Below are positions 1,910-44,498 of a DNA stretch of 64,000 bases, piece after piece. The notes beneath the pieces were generated by a model. That model was not told where the DNA came from. It was given only the letters and a program-made list of their open reading frames with translations, and made no database searches. The translations under genes were made by a program, and so were the position numbers. Positions within the stretch are counted from its first letter, which is position 1; every line of letters begins with the position of its first letter. The stretch is from Verrucomicrobiales bacterium. Its GTDB lineage: Bacteria > Verrucomicrobiota > Verrucomicrobiia > Verrucomicrobiales > SLCJ01. The stretch lies in NCBI GenBank assembly GCA_024636835.1, contig JAGXGH010000102.1, positions 1 through 64,000 on the forward strand, given 5' to 3'.

Positions 1910-1929
1910 GATGGGTTTCTATGACGGGT

Positions 1930-3354
1930 ATGAAACAAAAACTACTACCACTACTTCGGATTCCTTTTGTTCGTCATTCACTTACCACGATGACGGCATT
2001 AGCTGCTGTATTCTCAGCCCAAGCGAAATCCGCTCCACCTCTCCGGCTGGAAATCACCAACTCCCACCCGATTCTTGTCACCAACGAGAAAGGGCGAGCG
2101 TTCGTGAAGTTCACCATCACCGGACAAGCGGTGCAACACGACCAAGACCGACGCTCGGTGAACCTTGCACTCGTCCTCGACCGTTCTGGATCGATGGCCG
2201 GAGATAAAATGGTCCACGCAAAGAGCGCCGCCAAGCACGTGATCGACCGTCTTCAGGACGGCGACATTGTTTCGATCTGCGCTTATGACGACGTGGTCAG
2301 CGTCATCGCCTCGGCGACCGAGGTGAACGACTCGACTCGCACCCAGCTCCGCAATATGATCGATGGGATTTCCACCGATGGCAGCACGGCACTATTCGCC
2401 GGAGTGAGCAAAGGTGCGGCTGAGGTGAGAAAGTTCCTCAGTCCCACACGGGTCAACCGCATCATCCTTCTTTCCGATGGGATCGCGAATGTCGGACCAT
2501 CTAGTCCACGCGAACTTGGACAACTTGGCATGTCGCTCGGTGCCGAAGGCATCAGTGTGACGACGATCGGATTGGGTGAAGGCTACAACGAAGACCTGAT
2601 GACCCAGCTCGCCTACAACAGTGATGGCGCGCATTCGGCGATTTTGAATTCGAAGGGGCTCGCAACGGCTTTCGACAGCGAACTCAACTCGATGTTTGCC
2701 GTAGTGGCTCAGAAGATCAACGTGGATATCCAATTGACCGATGGAGTAAAATTCATCCGCGCCTTGGGACGCGATGTGGAAGTGAGTGGCAACGATGTCC
2801 GTGCGCAACTCAACCAAGTCGGTGAGAACCAAGAGAAGTATATCCTTCTTGAAGTGGAAGTGCCTGAGCAATTGGCTGGCCAGGTGGCATCCTGCAACTT
2901 GAACTATGACAGTGTGATCGACGGCGAGAACCGGATGATTTCTGCTGTAGTCGACGTTCAGCGCAGCGCAGATAAGAAGATCGCTAAAGATGCCATCGAA
3001 CAAGACGTCTATAGCGAAGCGGTGACTCAAACCGTCGTCGCAGCCAGTGAGCGTGCTGTCGCTCTTCGCGACAAGGGACAGGTGAAAGAAGCTCAGCAAG
3101 AACTCCTGAAATCAGCTGATGATGCTGCTAGCTACTTGCAAGTGAACGAAAGCTCGCTCAATGAAGGACAAAAGGCGAAGCTCAATGATGTAATTGGTAA
3201 CAACCGCATGAATGCTCCAGCTGTTGCCGATCCTGACGCTTACAAAAACACCCGCAAAGTCATGCGCGCCCAACAATCAGAATGGGTAACCGGCAACTCG
3301 AACGTAATCGAAGAAAAACAGCCAACACCGCCCCAAACCAAGGGCCGCAGATAA
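1930..3354 (+). CDS. Secreted VWA-domain protein
   Basis: The frame opens at 1921, but Met at 1930 directly precedes a basic-hydrophobic signal peptide (to about residue 36) and is preferred. The von Willebrand A domain spans about residues 76-260 and has a full metal-ion-dependent adhesion site: D84-x-S86-x-S88 (LVLDRSGSM), T153 (DGSTALF) and D183 (LLSDG). Metal-dependent protein binding on the outside of the cell is therefore likely. The C-terminal 150 residues are helical with a TPR-like stretch (DKGQVKEAQQELLKSADD). It is the first gene of an operon with a histidine kinase (15-bp gap) and a response regulator, so it may act as the sensory input; that is inference. Confidence 0.85.
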   Translation: MKQKLLPLLRIPFVRHSLTTMTALAAVFSAQAKSAPPLRLEITNSHPILVTNEKGRAFVKFTITGQAVQHDQDRRSVNLALVLDRSGSMAGDKMVHAKSAAKHVIDRLQDGDIVSICAYDDVVSVIASATEVNDSTRTQLRNMIDGISTDGSTALFAGVSKGAAEVRKFLSPTRVNRIILLSDGIANVGPSSPRELGQLGMSLGAEGISVTTIGLGEGYNEDLMTQLAYNSDGAHSAILNSKGLATAFDSELNSMFAVVAQKINVDIQLTDGVKFIRALGRDVEVSGNDVRAQLNQVGENQEKYILLEVEVPEQLAGQVASCNLNYDSVIDGENRMISAVVDVQRSADKKIAKDAIEQDVYSEAVTQTVVAASERAVALRDKGQVKEAQQELLKSADDAASYLQVNESSLNEGQKAKLNDVIGNNRMNAPAVADPDAYKNTRKVMRAQQSEWVTGNSNVIEEKQPTPPQTKGRR

Positions 3355-3369
3355 TTCACCCATCATCTA

Positions 3370-4986
3370 TTGAATCGAAAGTTCACCATACTCTTCACCG
3401 CCATGGTGGTGCTCCCATTGCTCGCAAGCTTCTGGTTTGCGAGCAATGCTGTGCGCACTGCCCGCACAGATTCCTTATCCGCTGCCAGTGTGTTGAGAGA
3501 ACAGCGAACGCGTGATTTCTCGGCTAAAATCAGCACCCGAATGAGAGAACTCGAGCGGGCGCTTTCCGCCGATCTCGACAGGGAATCCGAGAATTCGAAA
3601 CCGTCCGTAAAATCGAAGGAAGCGATCAATCCATGGGCACCGTCATCCTTGAATCCTGAGCGGTTCATCCTCCAGCGTTTTCAGTTTGGAGTGGATGGCG
3701 AGCTTGTAAGCCCGGATATCGATAGCGATGCAGGCCCGCGTATCAATGCATTCATACTCGCCACAGATTCCCTGCGGCGCGATGGACTGGTGCTGGGGCA
3801 AGCACAAAACGAAAACGGCTCAAAAACAGCCGCCGGATGGCACGGGTGGTATCATGATGAGGGATGGCAATTAATCTACTGGAAACGTCGTAGCAGTGGC
3901 GTGATCGACGGCGTGTGGATCAATCGATCGGTATTGATTAGCGATATCATTGGCCAACTTCCAGACACCTCTGCTGCAAGCGATCAAAAGTCGCGTCAGG
4001 CAAGTTTCGATCTGGCCATCAATCAGAGCTACGATGAAGGGGATGTCTATCAACTTGTAGGAGCGTCGGAAACGGCACTTTACCAATGGGGGGACCATTC
4101 CGATGGCTCACCAAGTGCAGAGGTGCATATCGCCTTAGCCGATCCATTGAGCGCTTGGACTTTGCATTGTCTCTATTCCCCACCAACCAACCCATCACTG
4201 TGGGCGCAACGGGGTGCACTGATGATCATTTTGGGCACCGCCTTGTTCTTGGCACTCAGCTATTTCTTCCTCCAGGAACATCGGCAAAAACTCCGCGAGG
4301 CGCAGGACCGCGTCAGTTTCGTCAATCAAGTTTCACACGAACTCAAAACTCCGCTGACGAACATCCAACTCTATTCCGAACTGGCGGCAAACAAGCTCGA
4401 GGGCATCGAAGGCGGAGAACCGGCACAAGGCAATCTTGCCGTGATCAAACACGAAGCGGCGCGGCTTGGACGATTGATCCACAACGTCCTCACCTTCGCC
4501 AGAGATGAAAAAGGCACGCTTACGGTAAACCCAAAGGTCATCGACATCGATCCCCTCGTCGATGAAGTCATCGAATCCTGGCGGCCATCGCTTGAGAACG
4601 CCGGAATCACTATCGAACGCACAGGCAGCGCATCCCAGTGCCGTGCTGATAGCGATGCCATCGAGCAGGTCATCGGCAACCTCATTTCCAACGTGGAAAA
4701 GTATGCCGTTGATGGACAGTGGATCAGCATTGAAACGAGCGAAACCGCAAAGCATGTGGCTATCCGTGTTGCCGATCACGGCCCTGGAATTCCGACCAAC
4801 CAATGCCACGCCATTTTCGACGCCTTCGTACGGCTCGACGACAGAGTGAATGCGAAAGCGGCCGGATCCGGTCTTGGACTGAGCATCGCTCGCCGTCTGA
4901 TCGAACGCCAGAGCGGCGAGATTACCTGTCGTCCTGGAAATCCAGGTTGTGTCTTTGAATTCACCCTACCAAAAGCCCTATCATGA
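3370..4986 (+). CDS. Membrane sensor histidine kinase
   Basis: This 538-aa two-component kinase starts at a TTG codon; no ATG fits before the first membrane segment. Membrane helices lie near residues 6-26 and 280-297 and enclose a periplasmic sensor region of about 250 residues without a named domain. The cytoplasmic part has the H box (SHELKTPLTN, phosphorylated His323), N box (VIGNLISNVEKYA), G1 (VADHGPGIP) and G2 (GSGLGLSIARRL), so all ATP-binding motifs are intact. It lies 15 bp after the VWA gene and overlaps the regulator gene by 4 bp (ATGA), which suggests translational coupling. The sensed signal is unknown. Confidence 0.93.
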   Translation: MNRKFTILFTAMVVLPLLASFWFASNAVRTARTDSLSAASVLREQRTRDFSAKISTRMRELERALSADLDRESENSKPSVKSKEAINPWAPSSLNPERFILQRFQFGVDGELVSPDIDSDAGPRINAFILATDSLRRDGLVLGQAQNENGSKTAAGWHGWYHDEGWQLIYWKRRSSGVIDGVWINRSVLISDIIGQLPDTSAASDQKSRQASFDLAINQSYDEGDVYQLVGASETALYQWGDHSDGSPSAEVHIALADPLSAWTLHCLYSPPTNPSLWAQRGALMIILGTALFLALSYFFLQEHRQKLREAQDRVSFVNQVSHELKTPLTNIQLYSELAANKLEGIEGGEPAQGNLAVIKHEAARLGRLIHNVLTFARDEKGTLTVNPKVIDIDPLVDEVIESWRPSLENAGITIERTGSASQCRADSDAIEQVIGNLISNVEKYAVDGQWISIETSETAKHVAIRVADHGPGIPTNQCHAIFDAFVRLDDRVNAKAAGSGLGLSIARRLIERQSGEITCRPGNPGCVFEFTLPKALS

Positions 4987-36962: not shown

Positions 36963-37328
36963 TTACGAAGAATAGGGAACTCGAACTCTCGGATCACTTT
37001 CATCGAAGTCTCTTACGTTTCTCGTCACAAGAATGCACCCCTCGTGATCCGCGCTCGCAAGAATGGTCGCATCGGGGAGCTTCAATTTATGTTCTCTCCT
37101 CTCAAAAACCGCGCGTTCTGCAACATTTTTACTGAGTTCGATACATTTCATGGATCGAAACAGTGCCTCAGCAGCTGCACTCTCTTCATCTGACTCAGCC
37201 CCACACATGACTTCAATCCATGAAATGATTGAATACAAGGGATCTGAATATCTCTCGATCTCCACTCGTGCTTTCTCGAACCCCTGAAGGTAGTCTATGA
37301 GCACATCGCTATCGATTACAGCCTTCAT
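36963..37328 (-). CDS. vapC: VapC-type PIN-domain toxin
   Basis: A 121-aa PIN-domain ribonuclease. The acidic residues that bind Mg2+ are visible: D6 in VIDSDVLIDYL, E in IEVMCGAESDEES, and the Asp pair region LPDATILASADHEG and RNVRDFDESDP. It would cleave RNA (in known VapCs tRNA or rRNA) when free of antitoxin. The start at 37328 (MKAVIDS) overlaps the antitoxin stop as ATGA; the frame opens three codons earlier, but the overlap start is preferred. Confidence 0.9.
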   Translation of the reverse strand: MKAVIDSDVLIDYLQGFEKARVEIERYSDPLYSIISWIEVMCGAESDEESAAAEALFRSMKCIELSKNVAERAVFERREHKLKLPDATILASADHEGCILVTRNVRDFDESDPRVRVPYSS

Positions 37329-37543
37329 CGATCCCACTCTCCTCGAAGCTTGTCCACAAAAGTCCGGCTATCGATTGGACGCTTCCACGCACCAAAAGCC
37401 TCACTCCGCTCTTTATTGGCATTCGCCGCAAGCATCTCTCTCAACGCTCGCCTGATAGCCTCCGCGCGCGAAATCTTCTGAATCCTACACACATCAGCTA
37501 GCGCTTTCACTTCATCGTCCGGAATTTCAATGATTGTTCGCAT
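37325..37543 (-). CDS. vapB: VapB-type ribbon-helix-helix antitoxin
   Basis: The 72-aa protein starts with the ribbon-helix-helix pattern MRTIIEIPDDEVKALADV and RAEAIRRALREML, a DNA-binding dimer motif. The C-terminal tail (KRPIDSRTFVDKLRGEWDR) would wrap around VapC. The frame is open to 37630, but Met at 37543 is preferred: it begins the beta strand and lies right after a TATAAT box and a 16-bp palindrome that would be the operator. It overlaps vapC by 4 bp. Confidence 0.88.
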   Translation of the reverse strand: MRTIIEIPDDEVKALADVCRIQKISRAEAIRRALREMLAANANKERSEAFGAWKRPIDSRTFVDKLRGEWDR

Positions 37544-37568
37544 GATGACGTCATCATTCATCATTATA
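37542..37568 (-). promoter_or_regulatory. vapBC promoter -10 box and palindromic operator
   Basis: On the minus strand TATAAT (37568-37563) is followed after 5 bases by the perfect 16-bp palindrome ATGATGACGTCATCAT (37557-37542), whose last bases include the vapB start codon. Transcription would begin within or next to the palindrome, which is a natural site for autorepression by the VapBC complex. No good -35 box is seen. Confidence 0.6.
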
Positions 37569-37719
37569 GGATTGAATGCAAGATCAAAGCGGCTGCAGGT
37601 CTCGCCATGCTGTCGAAAGGATGACTCCACAAATTACTAGATGCCTGTCATGACATGAATTTACTCTAGAGATGAGATGAATCTGACAACAAAGGCGCAC
37701 AAGCAGTCCATCTTGCCCT

Positions 37720-38419: not shown

Positions 38420-39766
38420 ATGCCCGACGCAGCCACCCGCAATCCCCGCTCGTTTCTCTGGTTTCGGGTATTCTTCAATTGTCGGTTCTACTACGCAATC
38501 TACGCCATCCTGTTCCTCGACTACGGACTGACGGCATCGCAGTTCGCCATCATGAATGCAGTCTGGGCGGCGGCGATCATTTTACTCGAAGTCCCGTCCG
38601 GCGCACTCGCTGATCAAGTGGGCCGCAAAAACCTCGTGGTATTTTCCGCCGTTTTGATGGTCGCTGAGATTGCCGTGATCTGTTTCACGCCCATCAACGC
38701 AGCATGGACATTCCCTCTTCTCGTCCTCAACCGCCTTCTCAGCGGCGCGGCCGAGGCTGCTGCCAGTGGAGCCGATGAAGCACTCGCCTATGAAGCCATG
38801 CCAGAGAACGATCGCGATGAAGCGTGGTCTGACCTGACTGGTAAAGTGATGAAAATCACCTCCTTCGGTATGATGTTCACCATGGCAACTGGTGCGTTTC
38901 TCTACGATGCGAGCGCAGTCACAAAGGCACTTTCGTGGATCGGTATGACCGTCGATCTTCAGACCGGCGACACCCTCAAATGGCCGCTCTACATCAACGG
39001 CATCACCGCCATCGGCGCGCTCATTGCCGCCCTTTCGTTTTCCGAACTCCGTGAAAGCCACGACACCTCAAATCTCTGGAAAAGCGTGCGAGAGAGCTTT
39101 GCCAGAACTCTCGAAACAGGAAAATGGATTCTTCACACGCCAGCTCCACTCGTGCTCATCATGGTGGGGATTCTCATCGACGGCGCGCTTCGCCTTCTCG
39201 TCACCAATGCGAGTCAATACTACCGCATGGTGGATATTCCCACCGCGTGGTTTGGTGTTCTCGGTGCAGTCGCTGCGGGGATCGGCATCTTCTCCGCCGC
39301 CTATGCCCGCCATCGACACAACAAATTCAAGGCATCAAGTAACTTCCGCCTGACGTGGATCCTCGCGATGCTCACACTGATCACCCTCGCCTACCCGATC
39401 AAATACTGGGGAGCGCTCGCGCTCTTTCCCTCGTTTATCGCCATGCAGATGCTCGGCTATTTTCTCTCGCAGCACATCAACGCGGTCACCCCATCGGATA
39501 AACGGGCGACCGTCCTCAGTTTCAAAGGACTCAGTATGAACCTGGCATTCGGCGGTGCCATGGTTATCTATTGGCTGCAATCATTCATCATCCAACAAAA
39601 CAACCGCGACTCTGAGCTCAAGCAATTCTCAGCAGCCATCGAGTGGTGGCCGGTTATTTTTCTCGTCGCCAGTATACTTGTTTGGATATGGATGCGCGCC
39701 AAATTCGGTAAATCCATGACCGATATGATTACCGCTGCCAAACATCGACTCTCCACAAAAGATTAA
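38420..39766 (+). CDS. Major facilitator superfamily transporter
   Basis: The 448-aa protein has about 12 membrane helices and the MFS motif A between helices 2 and 3 (GALADQVGRKNLVVF). Helices include WAAAIILLEVPSGAL, TFPLLVLNRLLSGAAEAAAS and GVLGAVAAGIGIFSAAY. The acidic motif SGADEALAYEAMPENDRDEA after helix 4 is typical of the MFS group often annotated as multidrug or permease proteins without known substrate. It overlaps the convergent anti-sigma gene by 4 bp at the stop codons. Confidence 0.88.
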   Translation: MPDAATRNPRSFLWFRVFFNCRFYYAIYAILFLDYGLTASQFAIMNAVWAAAIILLEVPSGALADQVGRKNLVVFSAVLMVAEIAVICFTPINAAWTFPLLVLNRLLSGAAEAAASGADEALAYEAMPENDRDEAWSDLTGKVMKITSFGMMFTMATGAFLYDASAVTKALSWIGMTVDLQTGDTLKWPLYINGITAIGALIAALSFSELRESHDTSNLWKSVRESFARTLETGKWILHTPAPLVLIMVGILIDGALRLLVTNASQYYRMVDIPTAWFGVLGAVAAGIGIFSAAYARHRHNKFKASSNFRLTWILAMLTLITLAYPIKYWGALALFPSFIAMQMLGYFLSQHINAVTPSDKRATVLSFKGLSMNLAFGGAMVIYWLQSFIIQQNNRDSELKQFSAAIEWWPVIFLVASILVWIWMRAKFGKSMTDMITAAKHRLSTKD

Positions 39767-41472
39767 CGTCGCGGACTGGCGAGCACCGGCATCTCAGACG
39801 CCATTTCCCGCGGCACCTCAGGGCATTCAGGAAGGCTCTTCACTTGCTTAACAAGAGCCAGGAACTCAGCACGCCGACCGTCGTGGTCACGCCCAAGCGC
39901 ACCCTTGGCGAGACGTTCGATCCGCTCGTAGTTCAAGGTATCCGATGGCAGGTCACCTTTGAGACGCAGGCCAAATCCTGCCACCGCTGCAGCAAATCGA
40001 AAATCATCGTCCAGCGAGCGCCAAAGCTTCATCACCGGCGGCACGGATACCACTTCTTTCTCATGCTGGAGTGTGCCTGGGACACGATAGATCAAGCGCA
40101 CGCTCAACAAGTCACTGCTCTCGTCATCGCGATCGAAAATCCCCGCATAAAGCCCGACAGGATGATGCACACCACGCTCTTTCATATCGCTACGGCGAGA
40201 CACCTCACGGTTTTTATCCACCTCATCCAGCTGGAGAGGAACCACTTCATAGAGTGCTGTCACAGTCTGGTTGCTATGCAAATCCGCTCCCGTCTCCGCA
40301 TCATGGATAACACCACCAATCGCGGCGTCCTGACTACAACGTGAGTAACCGATCAAACGATAGCTCTTCACCATTGCTGCATTAAAATCTGCCACCACTC
40401 CAAGATCACTCGCCACGACTTCATCCGATCCACCACCCGGAACATCGCGACCACGTATCCCCACACGAACCAAGGCGTGAGATGCATTCCAAGGACACTC
40501 TCCAGTTTCGACGGACACACTCAGACGCTCGCCGTAAGCAGGCTCGGGATAACTGTAGGGGAAGTAGTTCACCAACTGTTCGACGGCAACGATATCCCTT
40601 TCAGGCAAACGCGACTCGCGGCGAACATTTGTCCACAGTGTTTCGTAGAAATCCGAACCAGCGACCACAGGAACAGCAGAGACGCCGTGAACCTTCGCTA
40701 CACGGAATCCATCTGATTCCATGTTCGGAGCGAGTTCTTCGTTTTCAGCAAGCTCGACCGAACCCTCCGGGTCGGCAGCACTTTCCTCCACCGTGGCGGC
40801 TTCGGCAGAATGTGTCGCATGCGACATCACATCAGCTAACCAAGCTTCCCATGATGCGCGCTCACTCTTCTCCTTGTCATCGCGACTACCATCAACGGAC
40901 GCCAACAGCGATTCTGATGTTGTCACTTTATCAGGCAGGGACAAGCGCACCCTCATCTCGTAACCATTCTCCTCAGCCGAGGCGACCATCGGATTCGATT
41001 CCAATTCATCCAACAAAGAGCCGCCCTTGGCTGACGTCATCTTATCAGCCAACCCTGAGTTAAACACACCTAGGAAAAACGCACCACCGACCACAAAAAT
41101 CACCCCAGCCGCGATAGCCGCTGTGTTGAATGCCTTTCGAGGAGAAAAATACGCACTGCGTTTCGCCGCGTCAGTCACTTCTAAGCTGGCTACAGTAGGT
41201 TCGGTCTCGTCAACAGAAGGTGAAGTGGATTCACCGGATAAAACCGTGTCCAAATGATCGAACACCGCATTCCGCTGGCTCTCACTGAGCCCGCCGGGGC
41301 CGATTCGCAAGCCACTAGCAAGCGCGTCGACTACTTCGATGGTGTCTTCGGCTTTTCCTCGCAGATCCGCATCACCGCGCAGCACTGCCTCAAAGTTGGC
41401 AAACTCATCAGGCGGTAATTCGCCCAACACGTAGCTCGTCAGCTCTTGAGGGTCTGGATCAATAGGAACCAT
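39763..41472 (-). CDS. Anti-sigma/YfbK-like protein lacking the VWA domain
   Basis: This 569-aa protein has a cytoplasmic anti-sigma-like start (PQELTSYVLGELPPDEFANF), a membrane helix at residues 113-136 (AAIAAGVIFVVGGAFFLGVF), and an acidic linker. Residues about 268-342 match the N-terminal YfbK domain (VEQLVNYFPYSYPEP, GECPWNASHALVRVGIRG). Residues from 352 match the C-terminal YfbK domain (DFNAAMVKSYRLIGY, TVTALYEVVPL). In ordinary YfbK proteins a VWA domain with a DxSxS metal site lies between these; here they join through VPGGGSDE, so the VWA part is absent. The adjacent ECF sigma gene (73 bp upstream) is the probable partner. Function: likely envelope-signal anti-sigma factor. Confidence 0.8.
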   Translation of the reverse strand: MVPIDPDPQELTSYVLGELPPDEFANFEAVLRGDADLRGKAEDTIEVVDALASGLRIGPGGLSESQRNAVFDHLDTVLSGESTSPSVDETEPTVASLEVTDAAKRSAYFSPRKAFNTAAIAAGVIFVVGGAFFLGVFNSGLADKMTSAKGGSLLDELESNPMVASAEENGYEMRVRLSLPDKVTTSESLLASVDGSRDDKEKSERASWEAWLADVMSHATHSAEAATVEESAADPEGSVELAENEELAPNMESDGFRVAKVHGVSAVPVVAGSDFYETLWTNVRRESRLPERDIVAVEQLVNYFPYSYPEPAYGERLSVSVETGECPWNASHALVRVGIRGRDVPGGGSDEVVASDLGVVADFNAAMVKSYRLIGYSRCSQDAAIGGVIHDAETGADLHSNQTVTALYEVVPLQLDEVDKNREVSRRSDMKERGVHHPVGLYAGIFDRDDESSDLLSVRLIYRVPGTLQHEKEVVSVPPVMKLWRSLDDDFRFAAAVAGFGLRLKGDLPSDTLNYERIERLAKGALGRDHDGRRAEFLALVKQVKSLPECPEVPREMASEMPVLASPRR

Positions 41473-41545
41473 GAAATTCGAAAGGGTGTAAATTGTTAGC
41501 TAGCTAGTGTTCGATACGTCAAACTCTTCGCCATACTGTCAGCTT

Positions 41546-42109
41546 TTATCCGCGCACGCCTTCTCCGCTCTTGAGAAAATCCTCGGCGCGACGTTGCTCA
41601 AGTTTCTCACGCAAGTTCTTCAATCCAGTGTGAAGGAGGAAACCAACATTGCCCGATTTCAACCCGGTCACTTCAGCAATTTCCTTGTAGCTCATGTTCT
41701 GCTGAAAACGCAGTAAGATGACCTCTTTCTGGTTGTGTGGAAGCTCTTCCACCCACTCCAAAACCTCCCGAGTCTGATCACGCTGCGAGGACAGGGACGC
41801 AGGATCGAGGTGGCTCACATCTTCGGCGTCCGGCACTAGATCTGACACCACCATCCTGCTTTCCTTGCGGATCACATCAAAGGCGCGGTTTCTCGCCACG
41901 GTGTAAAGCCACGCCTTCACATTCTCCTCAATCTGCTCGGGATCTTGATTGCACAAGCGCATGAACGCATCCTGCACCACGTCCCTCGCCCGCTCGTGAT
42001 CACCCTTGAGAAGCCCCGCCACATAGTAAACCAAGGCTGATTCGTGATCGCGCAATGATCGTTCGACGATTTCACGGATTCGTTGGATGGGGTCGTCTTG
42101 TGTGGTCAT
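41546..42109 (-). CDS. ECF-type RNA polymerase sigma factor
   Basis: This 187-aa sigma factor has region 2 (KGDHERARDVVQDAFMRLCN, VKAWLYTVARNRAFDVIRKE) and region 4 (LPHNQKEVILLRFQQNMSYK, EIAEVTGLKSGNVGFLLHTG). It is co-directional with and 73 bp before the membrane anti-sigma/YfbK-like gene, the usual sigma/anti-sigma order. It would bind core polymerase and turn on an envelope or stress regulon once released. Its own promoter lies in the divergent spacer up to 42322. Confidence 0.94.
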   Translation of the reverse strand: MTTQDDPIQRIREIVERSLRDHESALVYYVAGLLKGDHERARDVVQDAFMRLCNQDPEQIEENVKAWLYTVARNRAFDVIRKESRMVVSDLVPDAEDVSHLDPASLSSQRDQTREVLEWVEELPHNQKEVILLRFQQNMSYKEIAEVTGLKSGNVGFLLHTGLKNLREKLEQRRAEDFLKSGEGVRG

Positions 42110-42322
42110 AAACCTGAATAGTGAAAGGTGAAAACGCGTGCTCTAAAGGTATAACACCCATCGAGTCTCCTTTATTAGAGTAAATGATAACAATTTTTGC
42201 CTTTCCTGACTATCCCTAAAATAAAGTCTCACCAAGGATTCCATATCGACAGATTTTACTCGCGTTTCATTCGTCCGTCCGTTGACATTCGCCGAGGCTA
42301 CGACAAACTAGAACCCGCAACC

Positions 42323-42842: not shown

Positions 42843-44498
42843 ATGAACATCTCCATCGGAGCAGACCACGGCGGCGTCGAATTGAAGGACGCCATTATCG
42901 CCCACCTCACCTCAGCGGGTCACGCCGTCACCGACCACGGCACCGATTCAAGCGACTCGGTCGATTACTCGGATTATGCCCCAGCCGTTTGCCAGGACGT
43001 GCGCCTTCAGAAAGCAGACCTCGGTGTGTTGGTCTGTAAAACCGGTATCGGCATGAGCATTTCCGCCAACCGCATCGACGGCATCCGCGCAGCACTCGTC
43101 CGCTCAGCGGAAACTGCCGACCTCACCCGTGATCACAACAACGCCAACGTCATCTGCCTCGCATCGAACGACGTCTCACCCGAAGAAGCTCCGGCAATCG
43201 TCGATGCCTTCCTCTCCGGTGAATTCAGTGGTGGCCGCCACAGCCAGCGACTCACCAAAGCAGATGGAGCCGTGCTTAATTGGCAGGATCCGGAAATTGG
43301 TGCCGCCATCGCCGCAGAAGCAGAGCGCCAGCAGACGCACATCGAACTGATCGCATCCGAGAACTTCGCATCGCTAGCCGTTCGCGAAGCCCAAGGCAGC
43401 GTGCTCACCAACAAATACGCCGAGGGCTACCCGGGTCGTCGTTGGTATGGTGGATGCGAACACGTCGATAAAGTCGAGCAACTTGCCATCGACCGCGCGA
43501 AGCAAATCTTCGGAGCCGACCACGCCAACGTCCAGCCACACTCCGGATCACAAGCGAACACTGCGGTGTATTTCTCAGTGCTCAAGCCGGGCGATAAAAT
43601 CCTCACCATGGACCTCGCCCACGGTGGTCACTTGACCCACGGTCACAAAGCCAACTTCTCCGGACAGCTCTACGAAGTCACTCACTACGGTGTGTCCAAA
43701 ACCGATGGCCGTATCGACTACGACGCGCTCGAAACACTCGCCGTCGAGACTCAGCCGCAAATGATCACCGCAGGAGCATCCGCCTACCCGCGCATCATCG
43801 ACTGGGAACGCATGGCAGCCATCGCCAAAAAGGTCGGCGCTTATCTCTTCGTCGACATGGCACACATCGCCGGACTCGTCGCCGCAGGTGTTCACCCGAG
43901 CCCTGTGCCGCACGCTGACTTCGTCACATCGACCACCCATAAATCCCTTCGAGGACCACGTGGCGGCATCATTTTGTGCAAAGAGCAATACGCCAAGAAG
44001 ATCGACGGCAAAGTATTCCCCGGCATCCAAGGCGGACCACTCATGCACGTCATCGCTGCCAAAGCAGTGTGCTTCGGCGAAGCCCTCAAGCCCGAGTTCA
44101 AAGACTACCAGGCGCAAGTCGTTGCAAACGCCAAAGCTCTCGCCGCAGCGCTCACTGCCAAAGGGTTTGAAATCACCTCAGGCGGCACCGACAACCATCT
44201 CATGCTCGTCGACCTCCGGCCAAAAGGTGTCGATGGTTCTGAAGTCCAGGTTCTCCTCGATGCCGCAGGCATCACCACCAACAAGAACGCCATTCCCTTC
44301 GACACCGGATCACCGATGAAGCCATCCGGTATCCGCGTCGGCACACCGGCCGTCACCACCCGCGGCATGAAAGAAGCCGAGATGGAAAAAATCGCCAACT
44401 GGATCAACGACGCCATCGAAAAGCGCGACGACGAATCCGCACTAAAAGCCATTAAAGCCGAAGTCGCCGAATTCAACAAGCACTACCCAATTCCGTAA
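42843..44498 (+). CDS. rpiB-glyA: Fused ribose-5-phosphate isomerase B - serine hydroxymethyltransferase
   Basis: Residues 1-140 are a full Rpi[12 protein letters not shown], catalytic Cys65 in [14 protein letters not shown] (the usual CGTGIG has Lys here), His98 in [12 protein letters not shown], and GGRHSQR. Residues from about 147 are a full Gly[27 protein letters not shown]-ring Asp338 ([10 protein letters not shown]) and PLP Lys367 ([12 protein letters not shown]), ending FNKHYPIP. The junction ([17 protein letters not shown]) has no linker and no stop. RpiB interconverts ribose-5- and ribulose-5-phosphate; GlyA makes glycine and methylene-tetrahydrofolate from serine. It follows the phosphatase by 55 bp and precedes zwf by 46 bp, so pentose-phosphate genes flank it. 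Confidence 0.95.

Follow-up and report, generated by a model that had tools for sequence, protein, structure and literature searches.

Recurrent loss of the VWA domain from predicted YfbK-type anti-sigma proteins encoded beside ECF sigma factors

Proteins of the YfbK family, such as E. coli YfbK, combine the Pfam families PF12450 (YfbK N-terminal, named vWF_A) and PF12034 (YfbK_C) with a VWA domain between them. These proteins and their VWA domains are widespread, and we know of no established function for either. Class I anti-sigma factors such as RskA and RseA are built from a cytoplasmic region, a single membrane helix and a periplasmic control domain, and the sigma gene is adjacent. ArnB, the Sec23-Sec24 core and ITIH1 have a split sandwich with C-terminal helices and retain their VWA; to our knowledge, none of them acts on ECF sigma factors. 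In ArnB a vWA domain splits the sandwich and a helical bundle forms the C-terminal part, an architecture that E. coli YfbK is named as sharing (PMC12852372). In ITIH1 a loop of a hybrid domain holds the inserted vWFA domain (PMC7170535). Anti-sigma factors of one group usually conserve their additional domains, and similar input cues have been suggested for them (PMC7406223). In the literature searched we found no description of a class of ECF-linked, VWA-containing YfbK anti-sigma proteins.

The locus described here is part of a 64,000-nucleotide stretch from a Verrucomicrobiales bacterium (contig JAGXGH010000102.1), below called the window. It contains two ORFs on a common strand, the sigma gene first, separated by 73 nt (Table 1). 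In the sigma factor regions 2 and 4 are present and region 3 is absent, as in ECF sigma factors, which agrees with the pairing proposed in an earlier, sequence-only reading of this DNA. The partner protein, hereafter the window protein, resembles the YfbK family in that it matches the two flanking models in their usual order and has the same predicted sandwich and helical part, but it is without the VWA, hence without the metal site, and is fused to a cytoplasmic anti-sigma-like region and a membrane helix. The layout is also that of RskA and RseA; however, here the periplasmic domain is a YfbK core and the anti-sigma models match weakly. Closest are the ECF-linked, VWA-containing YfbK proteins L027, L074 and L135, which share the gene pair, the sigma type and the anti-sigma-like start, but retain the VWA. 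Many such proteins also have a promoter-like motif of the type seen in the window.

Table 1. Features of the gene pair in the window, listed from the upstream site to the end of the second gene's C-terminal part.
Feature	Position	Strand	Details
Promoter-like site CTAATAAA-N14-TGTT	42153..42178	-	44 bp upstream of the sigma start codon
ECF sigma factor, regions 2 and 4	41546..42109	-	187 aa; Pfam Sigma70_r2 E 5.3e-12, Sigma70_r4_2 E 1.3e-12
VWA-less YfbK-type membrane anti-sigma protein (predicted)	39763..41472	-	569-aa ORF
Cytoplasmic anti-sigma-like region (probable)	41248..41442	-	residues ~11-75; NF052375 weak match, residues 11-132
Single membrane helix (hydropathy)	41062..41118	-	residues 119-137; Kyte-Doolittle mean 2.44, next best segment 1.07
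N-terminal half of YfbK beta-sandwich (predicted)	40444..40677	-	residues 266-343; PF12450 280-336; model strands 317-326, 329-341
Excision junction VPGGGSDE, site of the missing VWA	40420..40443	-	residues 344-351
C-terminal half of beta-sandwich and helical part (predicted)	39832..40419	-	residues 352-547; PF12034; five strands, then three helices at 489-545

The N-terminal anti-sigma-like region with one membrane helix, as read earlier, was recovered. The window protein is probably an anti-sigma factor, judging from the weak match to the anti-sigma model NF052375 (30.3 bits against a cut-off of 100), the single helix and the position behind the ECF gene. The Hx3Cx2C zinc motif is absent from its anti-sigma-like region, and the only cysteines of the protein are residues 326, 379 and 550.

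The sequence-only reading had described an in-frame loss of the VWA and proposed a profile search as a check. This search found both YfbK domains, PF12450 with E 4.5e-13 and 49.4 bits and PF12034 with E 6.4e-28 and 98.6 bits (cut-off 25 for both), and no VWA family in Pfam even at E up to 10, in agreement with the loss. Between the YfbK halves, where a VWA with its DxSxS metal motif is expected, the window protein has the 8 residues VPGGGSDE, compared with 187-190 residues at the same site in relatives. Both the profile search and a reading of the locus led us to reject a hidden VWA or one in another frame. The flanks had been called well conserved; this stands as far as both models match, but the scores are well below those of VWA-containing relatives (121-127 bits for vWF_A and 214-236 for YfbK_C). 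The nucleotide coordinates given earlier were right and the residue numbers off by one.

Could the junction be an artefact of assembly or gene calling? We found nothing in favour of this, and its probability is practically nil. The junction is in frame, and the same form occurs in the single-contig genomes G001, G163 and G133 as well as in drafts from many genera; an assembly error, which would have undone the earlier reading, was rejected on this recurrence in single-contig genomes. G001 belongs to the same genus as the window; its corresponding locus also encodes a VWA-less protein, with 42.8% identity over the whole length. Synteny is kept, the two sharing the sigma gene and the neighbouring genes for a low-molecular-weight phosphatase and an RpiB-SHMT fusion. 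A second genus of the window's family (G002) has the VWA-less form too. In two genomes from the window's order, the gene after the sigma gene encodes a complete VWA-containing protein.

We built a structure model of residues 254-569 of the window protein from a seven-row alignment (mean pLDDT 67.6, pTM 0.71); a direct sequence match of the protein in the PDB was not found. According to the model, two strands come before the junction and five after it, the junction itself being a turn between neighbouring strands, and three helices follow. The model of the VWA-containing relative L013 (pTM 0.56) has the same order of elements, with the VWA located inside that turn. Among solved structures its top fold match is ArnB (8s05, E 2.5e-18); other split-sandwich VWA proteins, ITIH1 and Sec23/24 are also among the best matches. 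The VWA-less model matches generic Ig-like sandwiches (adaptin ear, E 5e-4) and, weakly, ArnB (E 0.02). The ArnB precedent, together with the order of the elements and the matching folds, makes it probable that the strands form one sandwich. Of the ArnB/Sec23-type architecture, i.e. a sandwich interrupted by a VWA plus helices, the window protein has the sandwich and the helices, both predicted, and lacks the VWA. The flanks had been taken for two separate domains; they are predicted instead to be the halves of one beta-sandwich normally split by the VWA, followed by a helical part, so that excision of the VWA would close a hairpin.

The deletion seen in the window protein is shared by relatives, as a survey confirmed. 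Junction-spanning matches (E 1e-30) were found in four genomes besides the window's in a phylum sample of 388 genomes, in nine of 200 genomes of family f9, and in one of seven in family f18. With strict thresholds, and thus as a weak negative in each case, samples of two other phyla, those of L019 (294 genomes) and L013 (297 genomes), gave zero such matches. In total there are 14 VWA-less genes, from 11 genera in families f1, f9 and f18 of one class; a first reading of the loci gave 13, and G367 contributed the fourteenth. A match to the YfbK core was obtained in 112 of 384 genomes sampled from the class, and since only seven of these are VWA-less, this form is a minority. All 14 genes adjoin an ECF sigma gene of the same type; VWA loss inside a single sigma type departs from the conservation of additional domains reported for anti-sigma groups (PMC7406223). 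Hydropathy gives a single membrane helix between the anti-sigma region and the periplasmic part in 12 of 13 VWA-less proteins, L064 being split over two frames.

Two of the loci have unusual gene arrangements. At L064 (G502, 2712-4251) the anti-sigma region and the VWA-less YfbK core are in different frames, either through a sequencing error or because the gene is frameshifted or split. At L140 (G367, 259-2955) one ORF of 898 aa joins sigma region 4, an anti-sigma-like region, the YfbK halves and a VWA; sigma region 2 was not detected in this ORF, and the gene immediately after it encodes another sigma factor, whose partner lacks the VWA.

The distribution of VWA-less forms requires six changes on a tree of the sigma partners, at least three of them forced by well-supported branches. 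A tree of the YfbK core with the VWA columns excluded needs five changes, again at least three forced; in it L022 and some others sit on long branches. A single ancestral VWA-less clade was rejected by the AU test (p 1.2e-6 overall), as was a single clade inside f9 (AU p 0.014). In the genus g40 two loci are syntenic on both sides, L052 (G163) with a protein of 514 aa without the VWA and L135 (G196) with one of 693 aa with it; the sigma factors are 89% identical, the neighbours 71-91%, and the proteins can be aligned apart from the VWA. In the genus g59 the VWA-less L063 is likewise syntenic with the VWA-containing L141 and L142. The junctions of L052, L063 and L054 retain remnants of the last VWA segment, which gives the direction of change as loss; the different end points of these remnants show that the deletions were separate. 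The L052 junction, GREAGGTLVTIAKDVK, matches the sequence that comes after the VWA in L135, and the L063 junction, GREAKNLFNAQGGGTLVTIAKNV, corresponds to AEAKKTLVEQAGGTLVTIAKDV in L142. Read from the sequences, the flanks of the lost stretch have 3-4 bases in common at L052 and L063 (AGG, GAGG), a faint hint that may fit deletion between short repeats. Since a single origin is rejected, the swaps are syntenic and the remnants differ, the VWA was lost recurrently and independently in several lineages of the class.

This is a clear case of an inserted domain lost repeatedly from a split beta-sandwich, the architecture of ArnB, Sec23/24 and integrin-like proteins. The natural deletion was made several times, including at syntenic loci within single genera and with closely similar sigma factors, and such matched pairs with and without the VWA make its role in signalling directly testable.

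Because related bacteria lost the VWA several separate times and kept the rest, the data suggest that it is an optional add-on and not the core of the switch. We propose that the ECF sigma factor is paired with its own membrane anti-sigma factor, which would have a cytoplasmic anti-sigma region, one helix through the membrane and a periplasmic part built as an ArnB/Sec23-type core. In most relatives a VWA with a metal site is inserted in what is predicted to be a hairpin of the sandwich; in the window and, separately, in several other lineages of the class it was excised in frame, which would have closed the hairpin. The sandwich and helices may then keep the sigma factor bound until another cue, possibly a partner protein, the state of the envelope or a protease, frees it. 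On balance we consider it probable that the VWA serves a membrane anti-sigma factor as a detachable sensor, with the sandwich and helices staying as the periplasmic control domain of that factor. More tentatively, and with slightly more doubt than confidence, the VWA could be a plug-in, repeatedly and cleanly excised, where the split sandwich and helices transduce the signal themselves and the VWA-less forms use the same sigma factor and promoter to answer another cue.

Codon rates between the window and G001 are saturated, and dN/dS (NG86) was therefore taken from the VWA-less pair L060/L062. It is ~0.08 for the sigma gene, ~0.15 for the anti-sigma region, ~0.19 for the core and ~0.52 for the linker. 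The retained core stays under purifying selection, in keeping with the earlier view that the flanks have a role of their own. Another reading is that sensing itself was lost: without the VWA the anti-sigma protein would be unreleasable or a fixed buffer, and the core would be kept for folding or stability only. We regard this as rather unlikely given the selection on the core, the persistence of the form in 11 genera and the better conservation of the core than of the remaining protein: between the window and G001 identity is 55% for the core against 38% for the anti-sigma region and 24% for the linker. For the sigma factor it is 66%. It would, however, account for the lack of a replacement domain at the recurrent losses and for low YfbK scores in f1. 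It would also fit the g40 core, which became somewhat faster after the loss (63% against 71% identity of the C-half to the same outgroup), so a partly relaxed function is possible.

That the VWA loss is a first step of pseudogenisation in an unused sigma/anti-sigma pair is very unlikely. L064 does appear to be frameshifted, and L022 has diverged strongly and has a shortened N-terminus, but the frames are open in 13 of the 14 VWA-less genes. The L060/L062 rates for core and sigma, and the close identity of the g40 sigma factors with and without a VWA partner, also speak against decay.

A VWA might instead be supplied in trans, from a different YfbK or VWA protein in the cell. The genome of the window (G000) does have further VWA-containing YfbK genes, all intact, on contigs 18, 95 and 109, and on contig 62 a gene for an ECF-linked, VWA-containing YfbK protein of 1408 aa; in G367 VWA-containing and VWA-less copies stand side by side. 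This explanation is nevertheless highly improbable: docking in trans would need a geometry other than that of relatives, where the VWA splits the sandwich, and beside the 13 VWA-less genes first read there is no VWA, except for an unrelated window gene 38 kb off.

The reading of the VWA as a plug-in includes a common promoter. The motif CTAAKAAR-N13/14-YGTH lies upstream of the sigma gene in 20 of 44 loci, compared with 0.02 in shuffled sequences and none on the opposite strand, and occurs at loci with and without the VWA. It was first noticed by eye among nine upstream regions and later held in others, including four of seven loci fetched afterwards. Upstream of the sigma genes of G001 and G002 it was not found. 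A genome-wide search in G000 gave 8 sites against 7 for a backwards control, i.e. no enrichment, and for this reason only the site at the sigma gene was taken as meaningful. These upstream sequences suggest that the sigma factors of the pairs regulate themselves through the same kind of promoter. The motif could serve as a reporter for comparing VWA-less and VWA-containing forms.

No conserved neighbouring cargo genes were seen across the loci. In G001 an L,D-transpeptidase (YkuD) gene follows directly downstream of the VWA-less gene (L021 5579-6235); it was found after the pair in this genome only, and not beside the window gene. A separate 477-aa protein that aligns with VWA domains is encoded at 1921-3354 (+) of the window, followed by a probable histidine kinase gene. 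At 36963-37630 (-) there is a PIN-domain gene with a ribbon-helix-helix gene upstream, likely a VapBC-type toxin-antitoxin pair. Finally, RpiB (ribose/galactose isomerase) and serine hydroxymethyltransferase are fused in one 551-aa ORF at 42843-44498 (+), and the copy in G001 (L021 601-2256) is 82% identical.
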